From positions 62,001-126,000 of the forward strand of contig NZ_FNXF01000010.1 of assembly GCF_900108485.1 (NCBI RefSeq): a DNA stretch of 64,000 nucleotides, given 5' to 3'. Position 1 is the first letter of the stretch, and every line of letters begins with the position of its first letter. The notes under the pieces are model-generated. The model made no database searches, was not told the origin of the DNA, and worked only from the letters and a program-made list of their open reading frames with translations. Both the position numbers and the translations under genes were made by a program. Of the stretch, positions 3,890 to 50,193 are shown piece after piece. The DNA comes from Rheinheimera pacifica. GTDB taxonomy: Bacteria > Pseudomonadota > Gammaproteobacteria > Enterobacterales > Alteromonadaceae.

Positions 3890-3890
3890 T

Positions 3891-4880
3891 TCAGGGTTCC
3901 TGTTGTTCTGGAGGTTTTGCATCCGGGTTATCCTGGCGCGTGGTAATACGAATACCGCCGCCTGGCAGGGCAATAACACGAATGCTGCCATCGTCCTGGG
4001 TTATCTGCTCAAGTTGCGGCTGCAAGCCCTCGGCACCGGCGTTATCAGCAGGCTCTGGCTGGGCTGGCGCAGTTTCTTCCGGCTGATACCCATAGCGGGA
4101 AATTGCAATCACCACTTTACGGTTTGCCGCCCGCCCTTGTTCCGTGTCATTCGGGCCAAACGGGTAATACTGGCCAAAACCTTCTATGGCAAGGCGCTGT
4201 GGTGCTGTTCCGGCGCGTTCTAAAATTCGTAACACCGAGGTAGCGCGACTCACCGATAACTCCCAATTTGACGAAAACAGTTCATTGTTAATCGGCAAGT
4301 TGTCAGTATAACCCCGCACCCGGATAAAATTGCTGATGGGATTAATAATCCGGGTAATTTCAGTTAGCAGCGTTTGCGCCGAACTGGTTGCTGTAGCGCT
4401 GCCACTGGCAAATAACAGGCCGCTGTTAAGCTCAATAGTCAGCCAGTTTTCATCCTGTTCTATTTTGGCCAGACCTTGTTCCAGCAAATTAGCCAAAGCT
4501 TTTGTCAGTTGTTGCTCAACTGCTTGTAACGGGCTGCCCAGCCGGGTTTCACTGATTTCTGATAATCTTTTGGCATCGGCCACTAAACTGGGGCCTTTTG
4601 CCTCCTCCAGTGAGGTGCCATACAAATCCAACTCACTTTGCGGCACGGCATGGGTTAATACTGACTGCCCCTGTACGCCGGTATTTTGCTGCTCTGGTTT
4701 TTCAAACATCCGGGTAAGGCTATCAGCCAGTACACTGTATTGCTCTTCTTTCACTATCGACATGGCATACAGCACAACAAAAAGCGCAAACATCAGCGTC
4801 ATATAATCAGCGTATGACACCAGCCAGCGATCTAACTGCTCTGGCTCTACCTGTGTGTGCTTCTGTTTATGCCGGTACAT
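3891..4880 (-). CDS. motD: Flagellar motor stator protein MotD (MotB/OmpA family)
   Basis: 329 residues. One membrane segment lies at about residues 27-48, starting SYADYMTLMFALFVVLYAMS. Asp25 in SYADY is the ion-carrying residue of MotB-type stators. A periplasmic OmpA/MotB peptidoglycan-binding domain follows (about 175-280), with RVRGYTDNLPI and NRKVVIAI. The C-terminal tail is Pro/Glu/Gln-rich. MotD pairs with MotC, encoded 5 bases upstream. The location between cheB and parC matches motCD of Pseudomonas, where it is a second stator set. The coupling ion cannot be told from sequence alone. Confidence 0.92.
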   Translation of the reverse strand: MYRHKQKHTQVEPEQLDRWLVSYADYMTLMFALFVVLYAMSIVKEEQYSVLADSLTRMFEKPEQQNTGVQGQSVLTHAVPQSELDLYGTSLEEAKGPSLVADAKRLSEISETRLGSPLQAVEQQLTKALANLLEQGLAKIEQDENWLTIELNSGLLFASGSATATSSAQTLLTEITRIINPISNFIRVRGYTDNLPINNELFSSNWELSVSRATSVLRILERAGTAPQRLAIEGFGQYYPFGPNDTEQGRAANRKVVIAISRYGYQPEETAPAQPEPADNAGAEGLQPQLEQITQDDGSIRVIALPGGGIRITTRQDNPDAKPPEQQEP

Positions 4881-5629: not shown

Positions 5630-6770
5630 GTTTTAGTTCCGTGATCAACCGTGCGGCAACTTCATTCAGGCTGACTTCCTCATCCATCAGGCCTGCCGCG
5701 GCTATAGCCTGTGGCATACCATAAACCACACAGCTGGCTTCATCCTGCGCCCAAATACGGGCACCTTGTTGTTTAAGCAGCCTTGCACCTTCACGGCCAT
5801 CAGCTCCCATGCCGGTAAGCACAATGGCCAGCACTTTATCACTGAATACTTTAGCGGCTGTCGCAAAGGTAATATCAACACTGGGTTTAAATGTTATGCG
5901 TGGCGAGTCGTCTTCTTTAATCCGCAACCTGCAGGAACTGTCATTGCCTTCAAGCAGCATTTGTTTGCCACCAGGGGCCAGGTAAGCCACGCCGGGGCGC
6001 AGCACATCGTTGTCTTGTGCTTCGCGCACTTCGATTTTTGACAGCGAATTTAGCCGCTGGGCAAAAGCACCGGTAAAGGCTGCAGGCATATGCTGGATCA
6101 GCACTATCGGTAATGGAAAATCAGCCGGTAACGCAGTGATAATACGTTGCAGGGCCACCGGCCCACCGGTAGAGGTACCAATTGCAACCAGCTTATAGCT
6201 TTTACCACTGGCCTGAAAAGCCCCGCGCGGGCTCACTCTTTCATTTAACTTAGGCCGCTCAAAGCTGCTGCGGGTTAATGCCGGGCGCTCTGACAATCTG
6301 CTGCTGTCGCTGGCAGCGGGTGCCGGGCGTGAAGCCAGCGGCGTGTTGCTAAACGTCTGGCGCCCCAGCGTACGCTTACGGGCTACCGCTTTTACTCTGT
6401 CACGCAGTAGCTGGCCGGCTTCGTCTTTGTCGCGGGCGATGTCTTCAAATTTTTTCGGCAGAAAGTCAACGGCACCCGCTTCAAGCGCATCAAAGGTCGC
6501 CTTGGCGCCTTCATGGGTCAGTGAGGAAAACATCAGAATGGGAATACGCTGCTGCTGCATTATTTCACGCACGGCAGAAATACCGTCTAACACCGGCATT
6601 TCTACGTCCATCGTAATCACATCAGGCTTTAGCGCTAAAGCTTTATCAACGGCTTCCCTGCCGTTGTTGGCGGTGTCAATAACGTCGATGTCGCCATCCT
6701 TCGCCAGAATTTCTGTTAACCGGCGGCGGAAAAAGCTCGAGTCATCAACTACTAACACCCTAATTGCCAT
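5622..6770 (-). CDS. cheB: Chemotaxis protein-glutamate methylesterase CheB
   Basis: 382 residues. The N-terminal receiver domain has acidic pair Asp9/Asp10 and phospho-acceptor Asp55 in ITMDVEMP. A Ser/Pro/Arg-rich linker follows (about 135-190). The C-terminal methylesterase has Ser200 in the GTSTGG nucleophile motif, His227 in IQHMP, and the LTGMGADG segment carrying the catalytic Asp. It removes methyl groups from receptors, opposing CheR (61185-62018). It lies 12 bases after cheA. Confidence 0.97.
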
Positions 6771-32773: not shown

Positions 32774-33568
32774 TTAACTAAGCAGGTTTAAAGCCTGTTG
32801 TTGCTGCATTCTGGCCTGCAGTGAAACACTGACAGAAGTATTAGCCAAAATATCAGCCGCCACCTTGTCACTGCTGGCGCGGGCAAAATCCAGATCTTCA
32901 ATCCGGCTACGCGCGGCTGACTCGGCAATTTGCTGACCGTTTAAATTACTGGCCGCAGAGCTAAAGCTGTTGATGGATGCGCCCGCGTCAGCTTGTAAAC
33001 CACCAATATAGTCCAGCGATTGCTGAATATTACCCAGCGATGCTGCCGCTGCGTCCGCGGAGCTTAAATCTATACTAAAAATATTCTGTGCGGTTAAACC
33101 GGAAGCAACGTCTACCGTGCTTAAATTCAGGCTGCCAGAGCCAGTACCAAAGCTTAAGGCGCCGTCCTGATCAAATAACTTTTTACCAGCGAACTCTGTA
33201 TTATCAATAACCTGCTGAATATTAGCGATGTATTGATCCGCCTCTGCCTGCAGTGCTGAGCGCTCTTGCGCGCCATAAATACCATTACCGGCGGCAACAG
33301 CCAAACGGCTTAGCTCACCCAGGTTGTCGTTGATGCCTTGCAAACCCTGTTCATATACCCGCGCTAATGACACACCGTCATACAGGTTACGCTCGCCCTG
33401 GCCTTTGCCATTAATACTGCTGCTTAGCTGATTAGCTATCTGCAAACCGGCCGCGTCGTCAGCGGCACTGTTAATGCGTTTTGCCGTTGCCAGTTTTTTT
33501 AACAGGCTGTCCTGCTGTAACTGGGCCTGGTTTAAGGTATTTAAACTGCCGGGGGTATTAAGTTTCAT
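32774..33568 (-). CDS. Divergent flagellin-like protein
   Basis: 264 residues with the flagellin core RINSAADDAAGLQIANQLSS at about 31-50. The C-terminal half is flagellin-like: ARSRIEDLDFARASSDKVAADIL, ending QQQQALNLLS. It differs sharply from the four cluster flagellins. The N-terminal VNTN...LNAQRQL and KRLSSG segments are replaced (SLNTLNQAQLQQDSLLKKLATAK), and the middle ~80 residues are unrelated by eye. No sigma-28 box was found upstream, unlike the other flagellins. It may be a minor filament or junction subunit, or have another secreted role. It lies between flrA and the divergent pse operon. Confidence 0.85.
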   Translation of the reverse strand: MKLNTPGSLNTLNQAQLQQDSLLKKLATAKRINSAADDAAGLQIANQLSSSINGKGQGERNLYDGVSLARVYEQGLQGINDNLGELSRLAVAAGNGIYGAQERSALQAEADQYIANIQQVIDNTEFAGKKLFDQDGALSFGTGSGSLNLSTVDVASGLTAQNIFSIDLSSADAAAASLGNIQQSLDYIGGLQADAGASINSFSSAASNLNGQQIAESAARSRIEDLDFARASSDKVAADILANTSVSVSLQARMQQQQALNLLS

Positions 33569-33682: not shown

Positions 33683-35912
<2,230 letters not shown>

Positions 35913-35916
<4 letters not shown>

Positions 35917-36611
35917 GGGTGGCCATTATTCCGGCGCGAGGTGGCAGTAAGCGCATACCACGCAAAAATATTAAAACTTTTTGCGGCCAGCCTATGCTGG
36001 CTTATCCGATCCAGGCAGCACTAAACAGCGGCGTAGTGGATAAAGTAGTGGTTTCCACCGATGATGCCGAAATAGCCGCTATAGCACGGCACTACGGCGC
36101 AGAAACCCCTTTTATGCGCAAGCCAGAGCTGGCGAATGATTTTACCGGCACCACAGACGTCATACGTAACGCCATTACGGAGTTGCAACAACTGGGTTGG
36201 CCGCTAAGCAGCTGTGCCTGCATTTATGCCACTACTCCGTTGTTAAACAGTGAGCGTATTGCCGCGGCATACCAGCTGCTGTTAAGCAGCAAAGCGGATT
36301 ATGTCTTTAGCGCGGCCCGTTTCTCTTTCCCTATTCAGCGCGCCCTGCTGCAAACTGCTGAGGGCGGCGTAGTGCCATTTGACCCGGCCAGCATTATGCG
36401 CCGCTCGCAAGATCTGGCTGAAACTTTCCATGATGCCGGCCAACTGTATTGGGCAACAGCTGATACCTGGCTGGATACCGGCAAAGCCGTATTCGGCACC
36501 GGCTCCAGAATGCTGCTGTTACCGGCGCATTTAGTGCAGGATATTGATACTGTTGAGGACTGGCAACGGGCCGAGCTGTTGTACCAATTGCTACAGGCGC
36601 CTGCGCAGTGA
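35913..36611 (+). CDS. pseF: Pseudaminic acid cytidylyltransferase PseF
   Basis: 232 residues. The N-terminal nucleotide-binding motif RVAIIPARGGSKRIPRKNI is typical of CMP-sialate synthetase relatives, followed by VVVSTDDAEIAAIARHYGAE. It activates pseudaminic acid with CTP, the last soluble step before transfer. The GTG start overlaps pseC by 4 bases. Confidence 0.94.
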
Positions 36612-37645
36612 AAGTGTTGTTTCGCACGGATGCCTCCGTAACGCTGGGTTCAGGCCATGTTATGCGCTGCCTGACACTGGCGCATGCTTTGAAAAAAACA
36701 GGCGCCAGCTGTGATTTTGCCTGCCGGCTGACATCCGGTCATTTGGCTGATGTTATCCGCAGTCAGGGCTTTAACGTACTGCCGTTACCGGACGCTCTTA
36801 GCAGTCAAACTGCAGATGCAACAGCAACACTGGCACAGTTAACACAGAATTATGTACTGTTGGTGCTAGATCACTATGCGCTGGCAACTGACTACTGCCG
36901 GATGCTACGGGCCCGTTGCCGCTACATTATGCAAATAGATGATCTGGCCAATCGTGCGTATGACTGCGACCTGTTGCTGGATCAAAACCTGCTACCCAAC
37001 GCAGAGCAGCGTTACAGCAAATGGCTGCCAGCGCATTGCAAGCCATTGTTGGGGCCACGCTATGCCTTACTGCGTGAAGAGTTTTATCAACCACAAGCGC
37101 AGCATGAACCGGGCCGGATCCTGATCGGGTTTGGCGGCAGTGACGAGCAAAATTTAACCACTCTGGCTATTAAGGCAATAGATGGATTAAAGCTCAACGG
37201 TGTTTCTGCCGATATAGTTATTGGAGCGAATAATCCGTGGCATGCAGATATTAAACAGCTTACTGCAAGCCTGCCCGATATGAGGTTACATGTGCAATGT
37301 AACTATATGGCGAAGTTAATGCACCAGGCGCGACTCATGCTTGGTGGTGGTGGTGCCAGTCATTGGGAAAGGTGTATTAGTGCTCTGCCGGGTTTGGTTG
37401 TTACCGTTGCCGAAAATCAGCAGGCGACAACGGCTTATCTTGACCAGCTTGGCGCCTGTGTGTGGTTGGGACAGGCTGCAGATATGTCAGCAGAGTTCTT
37501 TGCAGAGCAACTGTGCTATTACCTGTCGCAACCAGCACTGCTTGATAGTATGGGCCAAACGGCAGCCGGTCTGATACCGGCTGCCGCAGGCACACCCCTG
37601 GTAGTTGAAACTATAATGATGACACTGAATAACGGACATCCGTAA
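36608..37645 (+). CDS. pseG: UDP-2,4-diacetamido-2,4,6-trideoxy-altropyranose hydrolase PseG
   Basis: 345 residues of GT-B-like fold related to MurG. The start is FRTDASVTLGSGHVMRCLTLA, where the His of GSGHVMR belongs to the catalytic region. MQIDDLANRAYDCDLLLDQN and the C-terminal GGGGASHWERC follow. It removes UDP from the PseH product. The GTG start overlaps pseF by 4 bases. Length matches PseG without a fused acetyltransferase. Confidence 0.93.
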   Translation: MKVLFRTDASVTLGSGHVMRCLTLAHALKKTGASCDFACRLTSGHLADVIRSQGFNVLPLPDALSSQTADATATLAQLTQNYVLLVLDHYALATDYCRMLRARCRYIMQIDDLANRAYDCDLLLDQNLLPNAEQRYSKWLPAHCKPLLGPRYALLREEFYQPQAQHEPGRILIGFGGSDEQNLTTLAIKAIDGLKLNGVSADIVIGANNPWHADIKQLTASLPDMRLHVQCNYMAKLMHQARLMLGGGGASHWERCISALPGLVVTVAENQQATTAYLDQLGACVWLGQAADMSAEFFAEQLCYYLSQPALLDSMGQTAAGLIPAAAGTPLVVETIMMTLNNGHP

Positions 37646-37657
37646 CGAGGATAAGCA

Positions 37658-38707
37658 ATGGCTGTAATTATGCTTGGCAAACACGCGGTAGGGCCGGACC
37701 AGGCGCCGTTTATTATTGCCGAATTATCCGGCAACCATGATCAAAGCCTGGACAAGGCATTACTGATGGTTGAGGCAGCCGCAAAATGTGGTGCCGATGC
37801 AATAAAGCTGCAAACCTATACCCCGGATACCATTACGCTAAACCTGCACCAGAACGAATTTTTTATTGATAACCCCGACAGCCTTTGGCACGGCAGCTCA
37901 CTGTACAGCCTTTATCAGCAAGCGATGACACCGTGGGAGTGGCACAAGCCGTTGTTTGACCGGGCAAAAGAGCTGGGCATGCTGGCGTTTAGCTCGCCGT
38001 TTGATTTAACCGCAGTAGACTATCTGGAACAGTTGGACGTACCCTGCTATAAAATTGCCTCGTTTGAAAATATCGATCATGGTTTAATCGCGGCCGTTGC
38101 CCGCACCGGTAAACCGGTGATCATGTCAACCGGCATGGCCACACAAGCTGAATTAGCTGAAGCTGTTGACGTGCTGCAACGCAACGGTTGCAAAGACATT
38201 ATCTTGTTAAAATGTACCAGCAATTACCCGGCCCGCCCCATAGACGCCAACTTAAACACTATTCCGCATTTGGCGGCATTGTTTGGCTGTCAGGTTGGCT
38301 TATCAGATCACACCGCCGGTATTGGTGTCAGCGTCGCTGCCGTCGCCCTGGGTGCAACCGTGATAGAAAAACACTTTGTGCTGGACCGCAGTGAAGGCGG
38401 TATTGATGCCGCCTTTTCTATGGAGCCGGACGAGTTCAGCTTGCTGGTATCAGAATGCCGTAAAGCTAAAGATGCCTTAGGTAAAGTGCATTATGGCTGT
38501 ACCGACAAAGAAATTGCCTCACGGGTACACCGGCGATCGCTCTATATAGCCAAAGATATGCAAGCAGGCGACATCTTTACTGCAGATAACCTGCGCTCTG
38601 TGCGACCAGGGCTGGGTTTGGCGCCCAAATACTTACCACAGTTTCTCGGTCGTCAGGTGAAACAAGACGTGACGATGGGTACCCCGCTGAGTTGGGAGCT
38701 AATCTGA
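37658..38707 (+). CDS. pseI: Pseudaminic acid synthase PseI
   Basis: 349 residues of NeuB family. The TIM barrel has IIAELSGNHDQSLDKAL and KCGADAIKLQTYTPDTITL, then LKCTSNYPARP and GLSDHTAGIGVSVAAVALGATVIEKHF. A C-terminal antifreeze-like SAF domain starts near residue 290. It condenses the trideoxy sugar with phosphoenolpyruvate. AELSGNHDQS distinguishes PseI from NeuB. It has an ACGAGGAT ribosome binding site. Confidence 0.95.
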   Translation: MAVIMLGKHAVGPDQAPFIIAELSGNHDQSLDKALLMVEAAAKCGADAIKLQTYTPDTITLNLHQNEFFIDNPDSLWHGSSLYSLYQQAMTPWEWHKPLFDRAKELGMLAFSSPFDLTAVDYLEQLDVPCYKIASFENIDHGLIAAVARTGKPVIMSTGMATQAELAEAVDVLQRNGCKDIILLKCTSNYPARPIDANLNTIPHLAALFGCQVGLSDHTAGIGVSVAAVALGATVIEKHFVLDRSEGGIDAAFSMEPDEFSLLVSECRKAKDALGKVHYGCTDKEIASRVHRRSLYIAKDMQAGDIFTADNLRSVRPGLGLAPKYLPQFLGRQVKQDVTMGTPLSWELI

Positions 38708-38710
38708 TAT

Positions 38711-39157
38711 ATGAGTGTATCTGTCATGCTTCGCTTGGCCACTATGGCCGACGCTGAGCTTTTGTTGCGCTGGCGCAATGACGCAGATACACAGCGATTT
38801 AGCCTCAATTCAGACCAGATTACTGAACAGCAGCATATCCGTTGGTTACAACAAAGCCTGAGTAATCCGCAGCGCCGGCTGTATATTGCAGAATACGCAG
38901 ACCAGCCTGCTGGTACTGTCAGAGTAGATTCAACAGCAGACTATCATCGCATATCCTGGACAGTAGCTGCGGAATATCGCGGTAAAGGCTTAGCTAAAGC
39001 TATGGTTAAATTGCTGGTAAGCCAACTGACAGGAACGATAGTTGCTGAAATTCTGCCGGGTAATACTGCATCAGTGTGCGTCGCAGAGTATGCCGGGTTA
39101 ACTTATCAAAATACGCACAATGGCATCATGTATTATGAATCTCAGACACCAGGCTAA
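38711..39157 (+). CDS. pseH: GNAT N-acetyltransferase, probable PseH
   Basis: 148 residues with a GNAT fold: LRLATMADAELLLRWRNDADTQ near the start and the acetyl-CoA loop AEYRGKGLAKAMVKLL near 90-105. The pathway needs one acetyltransferase (PseH) between PseC and PseG, and this is the only candidate seen. It is also the last gene of the operon. It is a little shorter than typical PseH and lies 3 bases after pseI. The role is inferred from pathway completeness. Confidence 0.75.
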   Translation: MSVSVMLRLATMADAELLLRWRNDADTQRFSLNSDQITEQQHIRWLQQSLSNPQRRLYIAEYADQPAGTVRVDSTADYHRISWTVAAEYRGKGLAKAMVKLLVSQLTGTIVAEILPGNTASVCVAEYAGLTYQNTHNGIMYYESQTPG

Positions 39158-39187: not shown

Positions 39188-39295
39188 ATGAAAGGAATTC
39201 TTCTTGCAGGTGGTACCAGCAGTTATCAATTTAATACAGAGACCTTAAATACTAAGGTCTCTGTACACCAAAACCACTACAAAACATTTATTTAA
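39188..39295 (+). pseudogene. Remnant of a sugar-1-phosphate nucleotidyltransferase (RmlA-like) N-terminus
   Basis: A 35-residue frame starts MKGILLAGGTS, which matches the nucleotide-binding N-terminus of RmlA-type enzymes (consensus MKGIxLAGGxGTR). It has an AGGA site in front. The resemblance ends after about 11 residues. The rest (YQFNTETLNTKVS) is unlike the family and stops at 39293-39295. It looks like a stub left by a deletion or replacement. Chance is possible for so short a match, but motif, start and binding site agree. Confidence 0.6.
39236..39264. terminator. Hairpin between the pse operon and the convergent methyltransferase gene
   Basis: Perfect 12-bp stem ACAGAGACCTTA / TAAGGTCTCTGT with a 5-base loop, between convergent operons and inside the nucleotidyltransferase stub. 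No clear T-run follows on either strand. A bidirectional terminator is the likeliest role. Confidence 0.5.
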
Positions 39296-39302
39296 CAATT
39301 AC

Positions 39303-40748
39303 TTAGACTGAAAATGAAAGCCCATTCACATCAAAAATACCGTTAAATATATTCAATGCTTGCTGCTTGCTATAGATACCATTTTTCACCATTGGCCAAG
39401 TTTCAACTTCTGCAACATCAATCACACGCCCCATTCCTGGTTGAAATTTAACCAAGCAAGTTTTGTAATTTAATGCCGCCAATATTGCCAATCTGTGTTG
39501 CCCGGCAGTTACAGAGAACCTCGATTCACTACCTCGGCGCATAATATAGCCCCGTATAAAACCGTCATAGTTAACTTCAGGATTATATCCTTCGTTAGAT
39601 ATTTTTATTAACAGCTTATACAAACGATCCACTTCCTGTAATCCAGCATCTTTTGCAACAGGCCCAAATGCATGAGAATCCCATTCTGGTATATCAGGTT
39701 GTTCACTAATACCACTAGTAATATTCTCTACAGTATCTGCTGGTTCAAACCATGGCATCCAACTAACATATTTGTTAAGGGGCATGGAGCCAAGCACACC
39801 GATATCTTCAGTTTTACCGGTTAACGTCCACAACTCTGAAAACACACTTGGGCGTACTTTTTCATAATAATGAAATAGTGGAGTATTCTCATAGATAAAA
39901 TCATTCCGCTTTTCCTGAACCATTGATAGCAAGTAAGTAGACATTTCAACAAAACGATGCCAGCAGCCATCCTTTGAAAAGGCCTGCATATCACGGGAAC
40001 TAATGCATTTATCCAGCTCAACATTACATAGCTTGACAGAAGTATCCCGCAACAAACTAACTGTATCGTTAATACTGGGTATTTTAATTGTCTGACCGCG
40101 ACCTATGGTTCGGGAGTATAAAATCAATGGTCTGTATGGCTCACTTGGAGGGATCCCATTAACTGATAGTCCCACTACCTGACTGGTGAATATTTCTCCG
40201 GCTTCATAAAGCAAGTTATCGAAATATTCTTTAGCTGAATTTATATCATTCTCTATAAATCCTTGGACTTCACCATATTTTTCATAAATCATACATGGCT
40301 GAAAAAACATTTGTTTCGTACACTTTTTGAAAACTTCTAAAAGGAATTTTTCAGAATACTCTCGGGAATATATTTTTGCCAATTGTTGATTTACAGACAA
40401 AAACAAAACAACATCAACTTCTGGCAACTGCTCTATATCATCCAAAGAAAGTGCAATATTACAAATTTCAGCCTGGCTAAAATTGTGGATTTGAAATGTA
40501 TCAGCTGTTTCAGCATATTTCTTTTCAGATTCAAAGCCAAAAGCCTTAAGCCCAAATGAATCAAGAGAACAAGTTACCACACCTTCATTACAACCAATAT
40601 CGATCGCTGTTTTAGCGCTCGCATCCAAATGCAGCTTGATCAAATTGATATTCTGACGAACACCTTCCAGCCTGGCTCCTAACTGATAACTCATAATATC
40701 CTCATTGCTGGGGTTAATTAAACGATAAACCGGAACAGTTTTACCCAT
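39303..40748 (-). CDS. Methyltransferase-like protein with C-terminal ParB-like domain
   Basis: 481 residues, not a named family. The N-terminus (about 45-160) looks like a SAM-dependent methyltransferase: AIDIGCNEGVVTCSLDSFGL holds Asp50-Ile-Gly-Cys-Asn-Glu-Gly, followed by a FGFES acidic strand end. The middle (about 170-390) is unassigned. The C-terminus has FSVTAGQHRLAILAALNY with GQHR near 416-419, resembling the ParB/sulfiredoxin-type GxHR motif. It is visibly more A/T-rich than its neighbours, pointing to horizontal gain. A start at 40694 has a better ribosome binding site (GAGGAT) and would drop 18 residues. It follows maf and may modify the flagellin glycan or its precursor (inference). 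Confidence 0.6.
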   Translation of the reverse strand: MGKTVPVYRLINPSNEDIMSYQLGARLEGVRQNINLIKLHLDASAKTAIDIGCNEGVVTCSLDSFGLKAFGFESEKKYAETADTFQIHNFSQAEICNIALSLDDIEQLPEVDVVLFLSVNQQLAKIYSREYSEKFLLEVFKKCTKQMFFQPCMIYEKYGEVQGFIENDINSAKEYFDNLLYEAGEIFTSQVVGLSVNGIPPSEPYRPLILYSRTIGRGQTIKIPSINDTVSLLRDTSVKLCNVELDKCISSRDMQAFSKDGCWHRFVEMSTYLLSMVQEKRNDFIYENTPLFHYYEKVRPSVFSELWTLTGKTEDIGVLGSMPLNKYVSWMPWFEPADTVENITSGISEQPDIPEWDSHAFGPVAKDAGLQEVDRLYKLLIKISNEGYNPEVNYDGFIRGYIMRRGSESRFSVTAGQHRLAILAALNYKTCLVKFQPGMGRVIDVAEVETWPMVKNGIYSKQQALNIFNGIFDVNGLSFSV

Positions 40749-40814
40749 AGTGCATCGTCAACAGGCAGTTTTTACTGTTTAGCTATGTAAACAGTAAAAA
40801 ATAACATCTTCGGC

Positions 40815-43631
40815 TTACTTAAACAAATGTTGTACATCCACATCATCAAACTTGAGTGGCTGCTGCTCAAACTGCTCACCACCAACAGTGATATAATCCC
40901 GCCATACCTGCATTACTTGCTTAAACACCGGCAAGATCTCCGGCGTATCTTCACTTATGCAGGACGCCACTTTCGTCATCAGGCCACCAAAGTAATTTGT
41001 GCTACCGTAGAACAAATAAAATGTTGGATCTGATGGGTCGCGCGCAGCGGTTTGCAACAAGCGCCACTGCTTGGCAATAAAGGCTTTGGCCTGTTCACCG
41101 TCGGTAATGTCATTATCAAACAGGGCCAACCAGGCGTCGACAGTGCGGCGAAATGCAGCAAAGTCGATTTGAGCATATATCGATGAAGCATAGGGTGATA
41201 AATCGGCGTAGTAAGCCGTATCTATCAGCTGTTGCAACACCAGGTTTTTACGCTTTGGTAAGTCACTGAACAAAATATTGCCTGGTTGCAGCGGCACTGC
41301 GCCTTCAATTTTCACACCATTGCTGCAATTGTAGATCTCTACTTTACGTCCGGCTTTACTGATAGCCTGCTCCAGTAGTTTTCGTGACATCTCAAATTCA
41401 GGCTTGGTAAACACATAAGGTAAAAAATTGCCCTTTGCCGGCATACCGCCACCATGTGTTTGCTGGTAGTCATACACTTCTGTGCCATCGTTACGATAAT
41501 AAGCCGAAGCTTGTGAGTGGTGATGCCTTACATCGGCGTAACCGAGATCAACACCAAACAGATAAAATACTTTAAAGCCCAGCTTCAAGGCATAGTTTAG
41601 TACTAAATTAGTGACCGTTGGGTAGGCATAACTCAACGAAGCAACCTGCACACCCTGCTTTTTCAGTCGTACATCGAAGAAATTCGTTGATGATTCACCG
41701 TCTTTAAAGCACAACAAAGTGTCTTTAAACAGATCTGCCGTATCAGGATGTATACCGTTTACACTAATCAGCCGAATATCCTTTAAATATTCTGCATCTT
41801 TCACCTGCCCTATCCAGCAAAACGTAGAGCGATTCTGTTCAACCTCAGCATGAAAATCCGGCTTAATTCCCTTTTTATACAATGAATATAATGCCGTACC
41901 ACAACTAATTAGCACTACTTTGTCGCGGTGCTCTTGTAAATAGCCAAAGCTGTTGTCTAGCGACGGGCCATTACCAACCACAAAAACCGGTAAATTCAAT
42001 GCAGGCAAATTACGATAACTACTGTTGTCGTGCTGTAAAAACTTATGCTGCTTAGCCACGCTGTTATAGGTATGGGCAATACCATAACGGCAATGATCGT
42101 AATATTCACCCAGTGCCAGCACAACTTTTAACTCTGCGCGTAAATCCGCAATCGCCTTATGCATTTTCTGGTTGAAGTAAGAGCAAAACATATAAGTGTT
42201 GGCAATAGAATAAGCGCCAACCTGGTAAAACTGCGCCATTAAATCATAAAAATAGGTTGAGCCATCACCGCCCAGATTCAGATATATCCGCAGCCCATTT
42301 TGCTCGGCGCGTTCAAATATAGCGGCCCAATCGGTTACTTTAAGGCTGGAAGCAAAAAAATCTAAATTGGGCTCACAAATATACAGATTGCTGATCTGAT
42401 ATTGTTCAGTCAGTAGTTGAATATGCTTACCCAAACCCACACCGAAAATAATTAACGAATCGACTTCTTGCGGCAACTGAATTTTTTGCTGTAATTGTTT
42501 GCTAATCAGCGGCTGGGTTTGCGCAATATGCGAGTAATGGATGTAGTGGCTGAATTTATCAACAGACGTCTGGCCTAGCAATACGTCATCTTTATACGGC
42601 TGATGGGTAAAATGCTCAACCAAACGGGCAGACTCCGTATCAATGTCATAATAAAACAAAGCCTTGCGCTGCGGATGATATAGATTGGCCTTACCATTGC
42701 CATCCGTCGTCAGCTGCCAATGCTGGCTTTGGTGCTTGTCAATTTCACTATAAACTTTGGGGTAAAACTTTTGCAGCGCTGCCATATTGCGCTGATACAG
42801 CTCATCTGCCGGTGCAGCAGCAAGCGGTTTGTGGTTGCCGAGCACGTTAACGCTGCGCTCGGCAACATAATCGTTAAAGTCTTCGTAAGCAACAAACTGT
42901 GCAGTACTACCCAGCAACTGTTCCGGCTGACCGCTGTGGGCAAATAAATATTCAGCAACTTTATCCATCACTGGATGGCAGTAATGCCGATAAAGATAAA
43001 TCCGGCTAAAACTGGCAACGCTGTGTAGCTCTGCCAAGTCTTCCGCAACCGAGCTACCGTCATTATCCAATTGCAGAAAAATCTGTGTGCCTGCAGCATC
43101 TGCTGCTGCAAACAGTTGCCGCCAGTCATTAGCCTGCACTGAGCAAATCAGCGTATCCACATTGGGTTCGTACACAATAAGGTACTTAATCTTTGTTTTT
43201 TGCAACAGCGCGTTTATCTGATACCCCAGCCCCAGCCCCAGCATAACCACCACGTCAACCTGCGACGGCAAACTTTCAACCGGCCAAGGCTGATCAGCCT
43301 GTATTGGCCCGGCGGCACTATCAAGTTCAATATAAGGCGCATTATGGCAAAAGCTGTCAACTTCAACTGAGACTTCCGCACTGGGGGTGTCGCTGTACCA
43401 AACCCGGCCGGTAGCAAAATCAACAATATTCAGCTCTGCTGCACGGGTACAAAATACCGAATACTGCTGCATACTATGTTGCTGAATTATCGGTACAACT
43501 GAAGGGATATATTGAGATAATGCCCGAAGGTTTTGATTAAAACGCTGCTTAATAGTTACTGCGACTTTCTGCTCAGACGCCGCCTGTGCGGCATCGTCCT
43601 GATCCAGCTGATAATTAATATACTTCAGCAT
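40815..43631 (-). CDS. maf: Maf flagellin glycosyltransferase (DUF115), with duplicated N-terminal module
   Basis: 938 residues. The DUF115/MptE-like core starts near 545 with LPVFVVGNGPSLDNS, followed by VLISCGTALYSLYKKGIKPDFHAEVE and FYLFGVDLGYADV. This is typical of Maf proteins that transfer pseudaminic acid to flagellin. Two related modules precede it, at about 125-235 and 391-498. Each carries GLG[L/K]-type, EPN-x-D and DW..xF..A repeats, so the protein is longer than many Mafs. It lies between the fliT-like gene and the methyltransferase, next to the pse operon that makes the donor. Confidence 0.9.
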   Translation of the reverse strand: MLKYINYQLDQDDAAQAASEQKVAVTIKQRFNQNLRALSQYIPSVVPIIQQHSMQQYSVFCTRAAELNIVDFATGRVWYSDTPSAEVSVEVDSFCHNAPYIELDSAAGPIQADQPWPVESLPSQVDVVVMLGLGLGYQINALLQKTKIKYLIVYEPNVDTLICSVQANDWRQLFAAADAAGTQIFLQLDNDGSSVAEDLAELHSVASFSRIYLYRHYCHPVMDKVAEYLFAHSGQPEQLLGSTAQFVAYEDFNDYVAERSVNVLGNHKPLAAAPADELYQRNMAALQKFYPKVYSEIDKHQSQHWQLTTDGNGKANLYHPQRKALFYYDIDTESARLVEHFTHQPYKDDVLLGQTSVDKFSHYIHYSHIAQTQPLISKQLQQKIQLPQEVDSLIIFGVGLGKHIQLLTEQYQISNLYICEPNLDFFASSLKVTDWAAIFERAEQNGLRIYLNLGGDGSTYFYDLMAQFYQVGAYSIANTYMFCSYFNQKMHKAIADLRAELKVVLALGEYYDHCRYGIAHTYNSVAKQHKFLQHDNSSYRNLPALNLPVFVVGNGPSLDNSFGYLQEHRDKVVLISCGTALYSLYKKGIKPDFHAEVEQNRSTFCWIGQVKDAEYLKDIRLISVNGIHPDTADLFKDTLLCFKDGESSTNFFDVRLKKQGVQVASLSYAYPTVTNLVLNYALKLGFKVFYLFGVDLGYADVRHHHSQASAYYRNDGTEVYDYQQTHGGGMPAKGNFLPYVFTKPEFEMSRKLLEQAISKAGRKVEIYNCSNGVKIEGAVPLQPGNILFSDLPKRKNLVLQQLIDTAYYADLSPYASSIYAQIDFAAFRRTVDAWLALFDNDITDGEQAKAFIAKQWRLLQTAARDPSDPTFYLFYGSTNYFGGLMTKVASCISEDTPEILPVFKQVMQVWRDYITVGGEQFEQQPLKFDDVDVQHLFK

Positions 43632-46324: not shown

Positions 46325-47149
46325 TTAACCCAATAAAGATAAAGCTGCCTGTGGCCGCTGATTTGCCTGCGCCAATACAGTAGTACTGGTTTGCTGCAGG
46401 ATCTGTTGACGTGTCAACTCTGCCGTTTCTTTGGCGAAATCAGTATCACGGATCCGGCTACGAGCACCTGATACGTTCTCTGAAATATTAGTTAAGTTAC
46501 GGATAGTTGACTGGAAGCGGTTTTGGATCGCCCCCAGATCGGCACGGGTACCGTCAATTACACCAATGGCTGTATCGATCAAAGCCAGAGCAGCAGAAGC
46601 ACCACCTACTGATGATACGCTTAGTGCGCTTAAGCCCAGAGCAGCTGTACCGTAACCACCGGTGCGTGATAATCTGATGCTAATGTTCTGACCGGCATTT
46701 GCACCTACCAGGAAAGATGCAGAGTAAGAGCCGTTCAGCAAGTTCTGCGTACCAAACTGAGTTACTGAAGCAACACGGCTCATTTCCGCTTTTAACGCAG
46801 TTACTTCTTTTTGCAGTGCTGCGCGGTCAGTGGAACTGTTGATACCGTTTTGTGATTGAATTGCCAGAGTACGGATACGCTGTAAAGAGTTAGTGATCTC
46901 TTCCATTGCGCCTTCAGCCACCTGAGCTACTGAAATACCATCATTGGCATTACGTGCAGCTTGATCCAGGCCATTTACCTGGCTGGTCAAGCGGTTTGAA
47001 ATTTGTAAACCAGCAGCATCGTCAGCTGCGCTGTTAATACGAAAACCTGAAGACAAACGCTTAAAAGCGGTATCCAGATTATTGCCTGAATTAAACAACT
47101 GACGCTGTGCGTTCAGTGACGATGTATTGGTGTTTACATATAAAGCCAT
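46325..47149 (-). CDS. Flagellin (copy 1)
   Basis: 274 residues, the short form with only D0/D1 domains and a small centre. The start ALYVNTNTSSLNAQRQLF, then FRINSAADDAAGLQISNRL. The end is SRIRDTDFAKETAELTRQQIL and QANQRPQAALSLLG. It is nearly identical to copies 3 and 4. It is secreted by the flagellar export system with FliS and is a likely target of Maf glycosylation. It has its own sigma-28 promoter and is closest to flaG. Confidence 0.97.
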   Translation of the reverse strand: MALYVNTNTSSLNAQRQLFNSGNNLDTAFKRLSSGFRINSAADDAAGLQISNRLTSQVNGLDQAARNANDGISVAQVAEGAMEEITNSLQRIRTLAIQSQNGINSSTDRAALQKEVTALKAEMSRVASVTQFGTQNLLNGSYSASFLVGANAGQNISIRLSRTGGYGTAALGLSALSVSSVGGASAALALIDTAIGVIDGTRADLGAIQNRFQSTIRNLTNISENVSGARSRIRDTDFAKETAELTRQQILQQTSTTVLAQANQRPQAALSLLG

Positions 47150-47249
47150 GAGTCACTCCTTAGTTGGCGGTAGCTTTGCTACTTTCAACTGATGTTTAAA
47201 ATACGGTTATCCCGTTAACTGAGCCAAGCTGCAACTTGGCTTAACCAGT

Positions 47250-47276
47250 ATTTCGGCCGCGACTTCATATACTTTA
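47250..47276 (-). promoter_or_regulatory. Sigma-28 promoter of flagellin copy 1
   Basis: The minus strand reads TAAAGTAT, 11 bases, GCCGAAAT. It lies ~100 bases upstream of the flagellin start, in the gap between copies 1 and 2. Confidence 0.85.
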
Positions 47277-47341
47277 GGAAAAAATCACTTTTTTTCAGAT
47301 ATTTTTTATTTAGTAAAAAAGCTTATATATATCAGAATGAT

Positions 47342-47366
47342 AAAAACCACCTCAGTGGTGGTTTTT
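47342..47366 (-). terminator. Rho-independent terminator after flagellin copy 2
   Basis: 10-bp stem AAAAACCACC / GGTGGTTTTT with a 5-base loop, directly after the stop of the flagellin at 47370 on the minus strand. Confidence 0.85.
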
Positions 47367-47369
47367 ATT

Positions 47370-48197
47370 TTACGCAGTTAATACACTTAATGCAGCTTGC
47401 GGCCTCTGGTTGGCCTGTGCCAACACTGTGGTGCTGCTTTGCTGAATAATCTGTGTCCGGGTCAGTTCTGTTGTTTCTCTGGCATAGTCGGTATCCCGTA
47501 TACGGCCCCGCGACGATGACACATTCTCACTCACATTAGTCAGGTTACGAATGGTGGAGCCCAGCGCATTTTGCCAGGCACCCAGTTCTGTGCGCCCGAC
47601 ATCAATAGCTAAAATAGCCTGGTCCAGCGCTAACAAAGAGTCCGCAGCGTCATCTATTCCCAGCTGCACTGCTGCAACATTCAACCCTGCCGCACCACTG
47701 CCATAACCGGTAGATAAATCAATTTCAATCTTCTGCCCCGCGTTGGCGCCAATCTGAAACACCACTACAGGTGTACTACCATCAAGCAATTTAATACCAC
47801 CAAATTCGGTGTTATCTGCAATGTTCTGGATGGAAGCTGCCAACTGATCATATTCCTGCTGAATGGCAGCGATATCTGCAGCAGTATTGATGCCGTTTTC
47901 TGACTGAATGGTCAAAACACGCATACGTTGCAAACTGGTCGCTATTTCTTCCATGGCACCTTCTGTCACCTGTACCAGCGAAACAGCATCATTGGCATTA
48001 CGTACCGCCTGATCCAGGCCGTTGACCTGGCTGGTTAACACATTAGAAATAACCAAACCTGCAGCGTCATCTGCGGCACGGTTAATGCGAAACCCCGATG
48101 ACAGGCGCTCAAAGCTGGTGCTCAGACCTACAGTCGCATTTCCCAATAACCGCTGCGAGGTTAATGACGACTGATTAGTATTGACAACTAAAGGCAT
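47370..48197 (-). CDS. Flagellin (copy 2, divergent)
   Basis: 275 residues. The start PLVVNTNQSSLTSQRLLGNA differs from copies 1, 3 and 4. The core FRINRAADDAAGLVISNVL and the end QANQRPQAALSVLTA are flagellin. In the middle IQNIADNTEFGGIKLLDG replaces the SRVASVTQFG stretch of its neighbours. It retains D0/D1 surfaces and has its own sigma-28 promoter and terminator, so it is probably a minor or position-specific filament subunit (inference). Confidence 0.96.
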   Translation of the reverse strand: MPLVVNTNQSSLTSQRLLGNATVGLSTSFERLSSGFRINRAADDAAGLVISNVLTSQVNGLDQAVRNANDAVSLVQVTEGAMEEIATSLQRMRVLTIQSENGINTAADIAAIQQEYDQLAASIQNIADNTEFGGIKLLDGSTPVVVFQIGANAGQKIEIDLSTGYGSGAAGLNVAAVQLGIDDAADSLLALDQAILAIDVGRTELGAWQNALGSTIRNLTNVSENVSSSRGRIRDTDYARETTELTRTQIIQQSSTTVLAQANQRPQAALSVLTA

Positions 48198-48255
48198 GCA
48201 GCAATTCCTTCCACATTTAATACCGTAATCACGGCACTTACTTACTGTTAGTTAT

Positions 48256-48282
48256 ATATCGGCACGCCAGTAAAATTCTTGA
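48256..48282 (-). promoter_or_regulatory. Sigma-28 promoter of flagellin copy 2
   Basis: The minus strand reads TCAAGAAT, 11 bases, GCCGATAT. The -10 box is strong and the -35 is weaker than at the other copies. It is ~60 bases upstream of the gene. Confidence 0.75.
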
Positions 48283-48305
48283 CTATTTTCTTTCTTTTCA
48301 AAAAG

Positions 48306-48329
48306 ATAAGCCGCCAAAAGGCGGCTTAT
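48306..48329 (-). terminator. Rho-independent terminator after flagellin copy 3
   Basis: 10-bp stem ATAAGCCGCC / GGCGGCTTAT with a 4-base loop, then CTTTTTG on the minus strand, 16 bases after the flagellin stop. Confidence 0.85.
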
Positions 48330-48344
48330 TACTTAACGCGGGAT

Positions 48345-49169
48345 TTATTGTAATAAACTCAGTGCAGCCTGCGGCCGCTGATTCGCCTGTGCCAGTACAG
48401 TGGTACTGGTTTGCTGCAGAATTTGCGTGCGGGTTAATTCAGCGGTTTCCTTAGCAAAGTCAGTATCACGAATACGGCTACGTGCACCTGATACGTTTTC
48501 TGAGATATTGGTTAAGTTACGGATCGTTGCCTGAAACCGGTTTTGAATCGCACCCAAATCGGCACGGGTACCGTCGATAACACCGATAGCCGTATCAATC
48601 AATGCCAGGGCTGCAGAAGCGCCTGCAACAGAAGATACGCTCAATGCGCTTAAACCCAGTGCATTGGTACCATAACCACCTGCCCGCGATAAACGTATAT
48701 CAATATTCTGCCCGGCATTGGCGCCTACCAGGAATGATGCCGAGAAACCACCTGCCAACAGATTCGTTACGCCGAACTGAGTCGTTGAGGCAACACGGCT
48801 CATTTCGGCCTTTAACGCTGTAACTTCTTTTTGCAGTGCGGCACGGTCAGTTGAACTGTTGATACCGTTTTGTGACTGGATAGCTAAAGTGCGGATACGC
48901 TGTAAAGAGTTGGTGATCTCTTCCATCGCACCTTCTGCTACCTGCGCCAGTGAAATACCATCGTTCGCATTACGTGCTGCCTGGTCCAGACCATTAATCT
49001 GGCTGGTTAAGCGGTTTGAAATCTGCAAACCTGCAGCATCATCAGCGGCACTGTTAATACGGAAACCGGATGATAAACGCTTAAAAGCAGTATCCAGCGA
49101 ATTACCTGAGTTGAACAACTGCCGCTGCGCATTCAGGGACGAAGTATTGGTGTTGACATATAAAGCCAT
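48345..49169 (-). CDS. Flagellin (copy 3)
   Basis: 274 residues, almost identical by eye to copies 1 and 4 across D0/D1. Small differences occur in the middle (TTQFGVTNLLAGGFSASF, YGTNALGLSALS). Conserved ends are ALYVNTNTSSLNAQRQLF and QANQRPQAALSLLQ. It has its own sigma-28 promoter and terminator and so is an independent unit. Such repeats can recombine. Confidence 0.97.
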   Translation of the reverse strand: MALYVNTNTSSLNAQRQLFNSGNSLDTAFKRLSSGFRINSAADDAAGLQISNRLTSQINGLDQAARNANDGISLAQVAEGAMEEITNSLQRIRTLAIQSQNGINSSTDRAALQKEVTALKAEMSRVASTTQFGVTNLLAGGFSASFLVGANAGQNIDIRLSRAGGYGTNALGLSALSVSSVAGASAALALIDTAIGVIDGTRADLGAIQNRFQATIRNLTNISENVSGARSRIRDTDFAKETAELTRTQILQQTSTTVLAQANQRPQAALSLLQ

Positions 49170-49249
49170 ATTAACTCTCCTGCTACCTAATTAAACACTA
49201 GCAGCTGCCGCCTTTATTGGCGATGTCGCTATATTTCAGTGTTATTTAT

Positions 49250-49276
49250 ATATCGGAATTAAATGATAAAACTTTA
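49250..49276 (-). promoter_or_regulatory. Sigma-28 promoter of flagellin copy 3
   Basis: The minus strand reads TAAAGTTT, 11 bases, TCCGATAT. The -35 is the full consensus and the -10 is one or two bases off. It is 81 bases upstream of the gene. Confidence 0.85.
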
Positions 49277-49328
49277 GATAATTTATAAAAATATTATCTT
49301 TGCTAGTAATTTTAATTCAAACAACAAA

Positions 49329-49350
49329 AAAGCCACCATTAGGTGGCTTT
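49329..49350 (-). terminator. Rho-independent terminator after flagellin copy 4
   Basis: 9-bp stem AAAGCCACC / GGTGGCTTT with a 4-base loop, followed by a T-run on the minus strand, 16 bases after the flagellin stop. Confidence 0.88.
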
Positions 49351-49365
49351 CTAGCGGTAGGAAAA

Positions 49366-50193
49366 TTAACCTTGTAACAGACTCAAGGCTGCCTGCGGCC
49401 GCTGGTTCGCCTGCGCCAGTACAGTGGTGCTGGTTTGCTGCAAAATTTGCGTGCGGGTTAATTCAGCAGTTTCTTTGGCAAAATCGGTATCGCGAATACG
49501 GCTACGCGCACCGGATACGTTTTCTGAGATATTGGTTAAGTTACGGATAGTGGCCTGAAACCGGTTTTGAATCGCACCCAAATCGGCACGGGTACCGTCA
49601 ATAACACCGATAGCGGTATCAATCAGTGCCAGGGCTGCAGAAGCACCACCAACAGAAGATACACTCAGTGCACTTAAGCCCAGAGCAGCTGTACCGTAAC
49701 CACCAGTGCGTGATAACCTGATATCAATATTCTGACCGGCATTGGCCCCTACCAGAAAACTTGCCGAGAAACCGCCAGCAAGCAGGTTTTGCGTACCAAA
49801 TTGTGTTGTGCTTGCTACCCGGCTCATTTCAGCCTTTAACGCTGTAACTTCTTTTTGCAGCGCAGCACGGTCGGTTGAACTGTTGATACCGTTTTGTGAC
49901 TGAATAGCCAAAGTGCGGATACGTTGCAAAGAGTTGGTGATCTCTTCCATCGCACCCTCTGCCACCTGTGCCAGTGAAATACCATCATTAGCATTACGCG
50001 CGGCCTGGTCCAGACCATTAATCTGGCTGGTTAAGCGGTTAGAAATTTGTAAGCCAGCGGCATCATCAGCGGCACTGTTAATACGAAAGCCTGATGACAA
50101 ACGCTTAAATGCGGTATCCAGAGCATTACCAGAGTTAAATAACTGACGTTGTGCATTCAGTGATGAAATATTGGTATTGACGTATAAAGACAT
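49366..50193 (-). CDS. Flagellin (copy 4)
   Basis: 275 residues. The start SLYVNTNISSLNAQRQLF and end QANQRPQAALSLLQG are near-identical to copies 1 and 3. The centre matches copy 1 (YGTAALGLSALSVSSVGG) in some places and copy 3 (TTQFG, NLLAGGFSASF) in others, which looks like gene conversion. It has its own sigma-28 promoter and terminator. It is the copy next to flgL. Confidence 0.97.
   Translation of the reverse strand: MSLYVNTNISSLNAQRQLFNSGNALDTAFKRLSSGFRINSAADDAAGLQISNRLTSQINGLDQAARNANDGISLAQVAEGAMEEITNSLQRIRTLAIQSQNGINSSTDRAALQKEVTALKAEMSRVASTTQFGTQNLLAGGFSASFLVGANAGQNIDIRLSRTGGYGTAALGLSALSVSSVGGASAALALIDTAIGVIDGTRADLGAIQNRFQATIRNLTNISENVSGARSRIRDTDFAKETAELTRTQILQQTSTTVLAQANQRPQAALSLLQG

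Follow-up and report, generated by a model that had tools for sequence, protein, structure and literature searches.

A candidate glycan-decorating enzyme, a probable methyltransferase joined to a ParB/sulfiredoxin-like module, in the flagellin glycosylation locus of Rheinheimera pacifica

The window analyzed here, a stretch of 64,000 nucleotides of Rheinheimera pacifica DNA, carries between maf and the pseudaminic acid (Pse) operon a gene for a 463-amino acid protein (39303..40694, reverse strand) which we propose, with a probability of roughly 0.4, to be a bifunctional enzyme decorating the flagellin glycan. Its N-terminal half would be a methyltransferase and its C-terminal half a putative kinase of the ParB/sulfiredoxin (Srx) fold, binding nucleotide by way of a GxHR-type motif. 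We infer the kinase activity, its substrate, the product and the order of the steps as follows: the C-terminal module would phosphorylate the Pse glycan, or CMP-Pse, or a precursor; the N-terminal domain would then methylate the phosphorylated product; and the outcome would be a methyl-phosphate or phosphate-plus-O-methyl cap, made before or after transfer to flagellin by Maf. Such a self-contained enzyme, working without sugar-synthesis partners, would fit the finding that a single gene stands where relatives of this bacterium have a multi-gene cassette.

The gene is real and under selective constraint, with dN/dS values of 0.083 and 0.081 (about 0.08) in comparisons with its homologs at loci L002 and L003, respectively; against the homolog at L005 dS is saturated and gives no ratio. 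A first-pass annotation had placed an open reading frame of 481 amino acids at 39303-40748 on the reverse strand, counted from the first ATG. The frame is correct but its start had to be moved to the ATG at 40694, 18 codons later, which is very probably the true one because L002 has no ATG at the position of the upstream start, L003 has a stop codon within the stretch matching the upstream 18 codons, and the L005 protein begins at MSYQLG, the equivalent of the corrected start. The upstream codons are thus not conserved as a reading frame. The A/T-richness remarked on earlier was confirmed, the gene having a GC content of 0.379 and a GC3 of 0.317 versus 0.443-0.542 and 0.404-0.558, respectively, in 13 other genes of the window.

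As the first-pass annotation had stated, the gene lies 3' of maf on the same strand and faces the pse genes. The flagellin glycosyltransferase gene maf (40815..43631, reverse strand; Maf_flag10_N, 3.4e-97) is located upstream of it, and the operon pseB-C-F-G-I-H (33770..39157, forward strand) converges on it. PseB and PseC exceeded the NCBIfam cut-offs and the PseH match fell below its cut-off, while pseF, pseG and pseI were identified by eye from the sequence. The linkage extends to the homologs: all three full-length ones sit between maf and pse genes, as the window gene does, and one with 54% identity has retained this position. The C-terminal module is present in 3 of 31 Rheinheimera genomes, all 31 of which have a Maf homolog.

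The interval between maf and pse in Rheinheimera is a variable slot of which the window gene is one occupant. The gene directly 3' of maf, read in 22 genomes, is of the window type in three, a glycosyltransferase-like protein of ~640 amino acids in six (homologous to one another, with 39-42% identity to the L046 copy), a CDP-glycerol-type phosphotransferase in two (L053 and L064, the former also having a cytidylyltransferase), and some other gene in the remaining 11. Next to the window gene there remains a stub of rmlA (39188..39222, forward strand), corresponding to the first ~35 nt of the displaced gene. Homology running from the pse genes reaches 39222 in comparisons with L046 and L047, and 39217 with L048, and then ends; rmlA is intact in these three loci and in L050 and L051, and L002 possesses the same stub as the window. 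The stub marks a replacement, and the window gene appears to have taken the place of a sugar-making cassette in a locus for flagellum glycosylation. On the basis of this genomic context, its connection with the flagellin glycan is well supported. In L061, where the slot is otherwise decayed, an rmlA-like beginning is kept without its ATG.

Residues 1 to about 200 (40095..40694, reverse strand) form a probable class I SAM-methyltransferase domain. The glycine-rich motif I of this class is present after the first strand, as AIDIGCNEG (residues 30-38; 40581..40607, reverse strand), and is conserved in the full-length alignment, D32, G34, C35, N36, E37 and G38 being invariant in all four rows. The two motifs first pointed out, DIGCNEG (residues 32-38) and GQHR (398-401), are both in the protein, and DxGCNEG and GQHR are unchanged in all four full-length sequences, that of the window included. 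The window protein gave weak family matches (Methyltransf_31, E 0.15 in Pfam, below cut-off; TIGR04290, 4.4e-4 in NCBIfam, far below cut-off) and the L005 homolog better ones (Methyltransf_12, 5.4e-5, and Methyltransf_11, 8.6e-4, both below the Pfam cut-offs; a PHROG methyltransferase, 2e-5), so the earlier suggestion of a methyltransferase is retained as a probable one.

The C-terminal module extends from about residue 220 to 463 (39306..40037, reverse strand) and is common to proteins of other species (alignments A1 and A5). Some 220 residues between the two motifs had been left unassigned; most of them belong to this module, because homologs outside Rheinheimera align beyond the GQHR region, over about 240 residues of the window protein. 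The module matched L007 in a tblastn search (9e-20), and profile matches were obtained in single genomes at 5.9e-35 (G1225), 1.8e-28 (G1063) and 7.0e-9 (G1122), as well as at 3.1e-87 in G163, a sequence that is itself in the profile. The blastp E-values, which derive from databases of 12 and 74 proteins, indicate relatedness only and are not database-search statistics. The C-terminal half represents an unnamed family recurring in bacterial surface-sugar loci: four of the five other loci with a significant module match, L007 being the exception, lie in surface-glycan clusters, as judged mostly by eye. Stand-alone module proteins occur in surface-polysaccharide clusters of other species at L010, L074, L075 and L076. 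At L076 a methyltransferase ORF (Methyltransf_25, 9.7e-16) and the module ORF share 4 bases and follow one another as their counterparts do in the fusion; directly beside the module at the other three no methyltransferase was seen. At L075 the GxHR proteins are accompanied by cytidylyltransferase, LicD-like (just below cut-off) and CDP-glycerol-transferase-like genes.

Several candidates were rejected as members. L065 and L066 (E 0.027 and 0.049) are large ORFs matched ahead of the GxHR region, and L008/G775 matched in the methyltransferase only (E 5.5e-4). By eye, L070 is a canonical ParB adjoining a ParA-like gene and L071 a ParB-like protein with GRHR. The GxHR proteins of L072 and L073, which are near glycosyltransferase-like ORFs, are context and stand outside the count of significant module loci.

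The module is likely to be related to the ParB/Srx fold, as the first-pass annotation had supposed from GQHR. The ParB/Srx-like core, approximately residues 357-417 (39444..39626, reverse strand), aligned with SbnI and more weakly with ParB_N in hhalign. GQHR (residues 398-401; 39492..39503, reverse strand) is the proposed counterpart of the Box II or P motif GxxR; its H and R are invariant in all nine rows of alignment A5, and the aligned residues of SbnI read GVHR. The A5 profile, compared with the PDB, gave SbnI as the first three of eight matches (E 0.0037, 0.13 and 0.14). The stand-alone protein of L076 matched the NCBIfam models of SerK (E 0.0015) and SbnI (E 0.014), and in the PDB it matched five sequences at E<=10, namely SbnI (0.18), SdeA (0.6) and three sequences of free-serine kinases (1.6). 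The equivalog cut-offs of NCBIfam were not reached (SerK, at best 17.7 bits versus 380; SbnI, 14.8 versus 350). In single members the weak ParB, SerK and SbnI matches all fall on the same motif, and the ParB PHROG matches have E-values of 0.019-0.21. None of the ParB/Srx-fold matches of the module passes E 0.001, and in the module proteins scanned no family match to the module, Pfam included, exceeded a curated cut-off. PF02195 (ParB_N) matched neither the window protein nor any of seven other module proteins (L003, L005, L006, L007, L074, L075 9744-10400 and L076), and a search of the bacterium's own genome with it found one place, which is not the window gene.

The hhalign comparison of A5 with ParB_N gave 92.8% with the ParB rows L070 and L071 included. 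Both were removed because the module profile itself had retrieved them, after which the value was 16.0% (score 24.1). Of 500 column shuffles, which share their seed with an earlier 200 and so repeat them, two scored above 24.1 (132.9 and 132.6), the next best being 23.8; one of the two high-scoring shuffles was inspected and proved to match over 7 columns at the end of the alignment. Scores were 22.0 for the module rows without those of Rheinheimera type, 17.8 for the Rheinheimera-type rows alone, and 8.4 for the reversed alignment. Structure prediction gave poor models of little informative value, which did not show the fold. From shallow alignments of three of the four full-length sequences (window, L002 and L003), AF2 modeled the full protein with a pLDDT of 37; for the last 126 residues the best of five models reached 61 and the other four 38-46. 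The best model is mostly helical and therefore at odds with the mixed alpha/beta ParB fold, and its 36 Foldseek matches in the PDB include none at E<=0.001. What argues for the relationship, though a Pfam ParB match is absent, is the place of SbnI at the head of the A5 matches, together with the weak matches of single members at the shared motif.

SbnI and SerK resemble the module in the aligned core, with its Box-I-like strand and GxHR motif. They are very distant from it; the module, of ~240 amino acids, has extra conserved segments that precede the core and a WPxV...F segment that follows it, occurs in glycan loci, and is fused to a methyltransferase in Rheinheimera. SerK phosphorylates free serine, not serine within a peptide. 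No counterpart of the catalytic glutamate of SerK or SbnI could be mapped onto the module, and neither enzyme is known as a sugar kinase.

In layout the protein comes close to WbdD of E. coli O9a, with a methyltransferase at 1-210 and a eukaryotic-like kinase at 211-459 (PMC3482155), and it also recalls ORF6 of Klebsiella O7, a methyltransferase joined to an AmiN-like kinase (PMC11231755). Both make methyl-phosphate caps with kinase domains unlike each other in sequence and structure, and both share with the window protein the glycan locus and the N-terminal SAM-methyltransferase joined to a kinase, here a putative one. Their kinase folds would be unrelated to that of the module, and the acceptor here would be the Pse glycan of flagellin. 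Since the full-length profile A2 has five PDB matches at E<=10 and WbdD is none of them, the comparison is one of logic only. Fusions of ParB-CTPase-fold domains to bacterial SAM-methyltransferases, some of which bind ATP according to the excerpts of a survey (PMC12704722), share the domain combination and the GxxR P motif. That survey was based on PF02195, which the module of the window does not match, and its main text does not contain the word "polysaccharide" and has "glycosyl" once.

Other readings of the same evidence have to be weighed. The module might phosphorylate free serine or threonine and the methyltransferase N-methylate it, the phospho-amino acid then being linked to the glycan on flagellin, as happens in the type A glycan of C. 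difficile and the b-type glycan of P. aeruginosa. The nearest solved relatives of the module are indeed free-serine kinases, and the slots of L053 and L064 carry CDP-glycerol-type phosphotransferases, with a cytidylyltransferase in L053. As described in the excerpts of PMC10714395 and PMC11833859, flagellin glycans bear N-methylated phosphothreonine that is partly lost without a putative methyltransferase, and the source of the phosphothreonine is only hypothesized; the present proposal thus shares with the flagellin glycans of C. difficile (type A) and P. aeruginosa PAO1 (b-type) a modification linked through phosphate and a putative methyltransferase. That pathway requires a nucleotidyltransferase and a TagF-like transferase, however, for which there is, apart from the window gene, no candidate ORF of at least 80 amino acids between pseH and maf, and the window locus has Pse instead of GlcNAc or a deoxyhexose. 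We consider this reading unlikely. Much the same judgment applies to a protein in which the methyltransferase is the sole catalytic part, O-methylating the Pse glycan, and the module regulates by binding nucleotide, or else serves to bind CMP-Pse or another nucleotide-sugar. ParB-fold domains serve as NTP-binding switches in the excerpted survey (PMC12704722), and methylation of a moiety carried by a nonulosonic acid is reported from Shewanella. The sfmABCDE genes of Shewanella oneidensis, as excerpted (PMC3765264), are species-specific modification genes numbered close to a maf gene and include a predicted methyltransferase, the methyl groups being on the moiety that the nonulosonic acid carries; they differ in that their operon has five genes, among them one for an ATP-grasp protein, and the excerpt mentions no ParB-like protein. 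Against a purely regulatory module stands its unfused occurrence in the glycan clusters of L010, L074, L075 and L076, which suggests that it has an activity of its own.

It is still less probable that the module is a transfer enzyme other than a kinase, for example glycosyl- or acyltransferase-like, substituting for the ~640-amino acid glycosyltransferase-like protein of relatives. The gene does sit where that protein is encoded, immediately 3' of maf, but the Pfam and NCBIfam matches listed for L003, L005, L006, L007 and the window protein include no glycosyltransferase family, and the matches of the module point to the ParB/Srx group. Least credible, to the point of being very improbable, is that the protein is ParB-like, binds or methylates DNA, has nothing to do with the glycan and was brought in by a mobile element. 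Low GC content and a patchy distribution (3/31) are compatible with such an origin, and ParB-methyltransferase fusions are known from phages in the excerpts of PMC12704722. Against this, 50,697 phage records contained no match, a pattern-based scan of viral contigs found no relative, the only match in the plasmid collection was L007 in a record of 2.63 Mb, and no HTH family was among the Pfam matches of the window protein at E<=1. Furthermore, the 54% identical homolog keeps its place between maf and pse, and the module turns up repeatedly in glycan clusters. The earlier idea of a catalytic rather than DNA-binding protein with a role in the flagellin glycan thus survives as a plausible one, in keeping with the maf-pse linkage and with the four of five other module loci that are glycan clusters.

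With more doubt than attaches to the bifunctional methyltransferase-kinase itself, we tentatively suggest that it could be a third independently evolved pairing of kinase and methyltransferase for methyl-phosphate glycan caps, after those of WbdD and Klebsiella O7, built on the ParB/sulfiredoxin fold and acting on flagellin pseudaminic acid, and that the module may represent an unrecognized family of ParB/Srx-fold sugar or amino acid kinases in the loci for O-antigen, exopolysaccharide and flagellin glycan. Among the matches listed in a search of literature titles and abstracts, none dealt with ParB-like proteins encoded in glycan loci. If the proposed function is true, an unannotated protein family of surface-sugar loci gains a function, the ParB/Srx fold, known from chromosome segregation and serine phosphorylation, acquires a part in glycan chemistry, and flagellin glycans diversify by swaps of whole cassettes in one maf-pse slot. 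The window gene is a concrete candidate for phosphate-containing modifications of flagellin, the phosphorylation step being still hypothetical in the best-studied case, as excerpted (PMC10714395).

Between 39000 and 41000 there was no Rfam match at gathering score. A promoter scan gave 6 hits versus 6.4 expected and is uninformative. A consensus terminator scan found none; a perfect 13-bp inverted repeat 3' of the gene (39235..39265) is a possible terminator; a further perfect 13-bp inverted repeat lies between maf and the gene (40769..40800).

The window covers a long flagellar and chemotaxis locus (read by eye), with four flagellin genes, also assigned by eye, at 46325-50193. The open reading frame at 39303-40748 on the reverse strand contains 481 open codons. 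Translation very probably begins with the ATG at 40694, giving a protein of 463 amino acids, because the upstream ATG is absent from the homologue at L002, a stop lies in that stretch of L003, and the homologue in L005 (genome G081) begins at the equivalent methionine. These three proteins are 94%, 87% and 54–55% identical to the query, respectively. The dN/dS ratio is 0.083 against L002 and 0.081 against L003; in these two comparisons maf, pseI, pseC and fliD range from 0.034 to 0.088. With L005, dS is saturated. This is a real gene and it is under purifying selection. The first-pass annotation was essentially right in its description, including the A/T-richness (GC 0.379 and GC3 0.317, the lowest among 14 genes measured) and the position after maf, convergent with the pse operon; the start has moved, and the C-terminal module is larger than it had claimed.

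Residues 1 to approximately 200 look, from sequence, like a class I SAM-methyltransferase, with a weak match to Methyltransf_31 (E 0.15) and one to TIGR04290 (4.4e-4) which falls far under the cut-off. The L005 protein matches better (Methyltransf_12, 5.4e-5; a PHROG methyltransferase, 2e-5). Residues ~220–463 constitute a single module, which is covered by no Pfam family in any of the eight module proteins scanned. Twelve of its residues are invariant in all nine rows of our alignment (A5), including the H and R of GQHR and the WP of WPxV. By blastp, query residues 194–458 match a 457-amino acid protein of Acetoanaerobium noterae (L007), the N-terminus of which shows no significant similarity, and the query also reaches the stand-alone proteins of L074 (303 aa), L075 (219 aa), L006 (298 aa) and L076 (233 aa). 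The E values of 2e-26 to 2e-6 refer to a database of 12 proteins, these homologues having been detected in separate searches.

Is the module related to ParB/Srx proteins? Against the PDB, a six-sequence profile had SbnI as its sole match at E≤10 (E 0.047). With three more sequences SbnI supplied the first three of eight matches (E 0.0037, 0.13 and 0.14), the remaining five (0.49 to 1.3) being, by name, proteins of other kinds. The alignment places DGFIRGYI...GQHR of the module (close to the profile consensus) on DDFIRHPI...GVHR of SbnI. The L076 protein matches SerK (E 0.0015) and SbnI (0.014), the L007 protein SerK (0.06), and a separate GxHR protein in L075 SerK (0.11); matches to ParB PHROGs lie at E 0.019–0.21. 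With circular rows taken out, hhalign against ParB_N gave a modest result (16.0%, score 24.1), exceeded by two of 500 column shuffles, both far above the rest, of which the one examined was a seven-column end artefact. A PF02195 profile search of the genome itself matched one place, which was not the query gene, and structure prediction was uninformative on the fold. In our judgement, not a computed value, the relationship is quite likely, not proven. GHHR is the motif of SerK and GCHR that of sulfiredoxin; the GxHR of the module resembles the motif of the fold's enzyme branch (GVHR in SbnI) more closely than the GERR of segregation ParBs.

Maf homologues occur in all 31 genomes of the genus, module matches in three. 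The slot between maf and pse was read in 22 (19 fetched regions in addition to the window, L002 and L003), the other nine carrying more distant maf genes (27–35% identity). The gene immediately 3' of maf is the query in 3/22 (window, L002, L003) and one for a protein of ~640 amino acids in 6/22 (L046–L051); 11/22 have other genes or arrangements there. The L046 copy of the ~640-residue protein is 39–42% identical to the other five and matches Glyco_trans_1_4 under the cut-off (E 0.013). The last two slots hold a CDP-glycerol-type phosphotransferase (L053 10030-11475 and L064 3402-4850; Glyphos_transf 4.4e-30 and 5.1e-34), a candidate for phosphodiester modification of flagellin glycans; in L053, where the neighbourhood was scanned, a cytidylyltransferase lies at 6313-6732.

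The cassette of L046, L047, L048, L050 and L051, unlike that of L049, also carries rmlA together with WbqC-like and PhyH-like genes (family scans in L046 only, homologues found by blastp, rmlA named by eye). The window is homologous to L046 and L047 from pse across pseH as far as 39222, which takes in the first ~35 nt of rmlA. Homology then breaks off and is picked up again on the maf side of the slot (at 40796 for L046 and 40821 for L047). Thus the query gene occupies the position of its relatives' cassette, with an rmlA stub left over; L002 has the same stub. L049, with the ~640-residue gene and no rmlA, loses homology to the window at 39156. L061 has a different, decayed rmlA beginning: the stretch 3714-4700 holds fragments resembling a glycosyltransferase and a transposase, plus the start of an rmlA-like gene that lacks its ATG, with no intact cassette seen, which may reflect decay or transposon-driven turnover. 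The maf-pse arrangement is kept in G081, of another genus in the family, with the 54–55% identical protein. Perfect 13-bp inverted repeats flank the query gene (39235-39265 and 40769-40800), and a similar repeat follows the L003 copy (by eye).

Beyond the genus the module is rare. Protein searches gave full-length or partial matches in 4/295 family, 2/394 order and 2/398 phylum genomes, own genome included; a match in G775 was to the methyltransferase only. Profile searches found it in one of 299 phylum genomes (its own), in 1/17 and 1/6 genomes of two other genera, and in 6/256 family genomes, two of these matches being weak and judged unrelated. The class search gave 8/239, namely its own genome, three with E≤7.0e-9 and four weak matches: a canonical ParB beside ParA (L070), a ParB-like protein with GRHR (L071), and two proteins with GxHR that have glycosyltransferase-like ORFs close by (L072 and L073).

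The link to glycosylation anticipated from the gene's position is supported by the homologues: eight of nine significant module loci lie in glycan loci (clusters named mostly by eye), comprising four maf-pse slots and polysaccharide clusters in G163, G1225, G1063 and G1122. The ninth, L007, is a significant match yet lies outside a glycan locus; the 2.63-Mb record that holds it is labelled plasmid pTPELB2, but housekeeping-type genes are seen on it by eye, and it could be a chromosome under the wrong label. In G1122 two separate ORFs keep the order of the fusion: one for a methyltransferase (Methyltransf_25, 9.7e-16), then one for the module, the two sharing 4 bases if translation of the module begins at its TTG. 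The G1063 cluster includes a cytidylyltransferase, LicD-like proteins (just under cut-off), a CDP-glycerol-type transferase (1.6e-5) and two further proteins with GFHR and GLHR (L075 9070-9747 and 15901-16539), related to each other (E ~7e-9, 12-protein database) and hardly to the module, possibly a second subfamily. GxHR proteins adjoin an NTP_transf_5 nucleotidyltransferase at L072 408-1797 (2.8e-9) and, with a weaker match to that family, at L073 1225-3001 (0.0042, under cut-off). At L010 9329-11547 (G163) the module's neighbour has no Pfam match and resembles that in L072 (E 2e-5 to 5e-5, 12-protein database). All three surroundings look like glycan clusters.

A glycan role is well supported by context, at a probability of roughly 0.8 (judged, not computed). 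We propose a kinase-methyltransferase whose substrate would be the glycan itself; of the accounts that give both halves a task and make sense of a cassette of one gene, this is the simplest. That principle has evolved at least twice: WbdD phosphorylates a terminal mannose and then methylates the phosphate (PMC3482155), and in Klebsiella O7 a methyl-phosphate end is made by ORF6, whose kinase differs from that of WbdD both in sequence and in structure (PMC11231755). In the main rival reading the resemblance to SerK and SbnI is taken literally and the module would be an amino-acid kinase, in parallel with C. difficile type A and its N-methyl-phosphothreonine (PMC10714395; PMC11833859); however, the pathway proposed there needs partners which are not in the query slot. 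We judge, again not by computation, a kinase function of the module plausible, somewhat better than even, and a methyl-phosphate product speculative and rather doubtful. Fusions of a ParB-fold domain with a SAM-methyltransferase have been described, some of them ATP-binding (PMC12704722), and this pairing of domains therefore has precedents. Among the matches listed from open-access papers we found no account of such a protein or family in glycan loci, and the combination in flagellin glycosylation, with its surrounding glycan-locus family, is apparently new.

A cassette adjoining pseI in L003 (9538-12827) encodes a TylF-like methyltransferase, a methyltransferase, a HAD protein and a PylC-like ATP-grasp protein; similar genes occur in L050 (cut), L054 (without the TylF-like gene) and L062. 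No pseH was seen beside it in L003, L054 or L062, and it is possibly an alternative to PseH acetylation. The pseH product of the window (38711-39157) scores 45.5 bits, well below the PseH equivalog cut-off of 93.1, and therefore may differ from canonical PseH. A short flagellin-like ORF (32774-33568) is divergent from pseB, with a counterpart at the same place in L002; L049 and L054 have a 264-amino acid ORF there.
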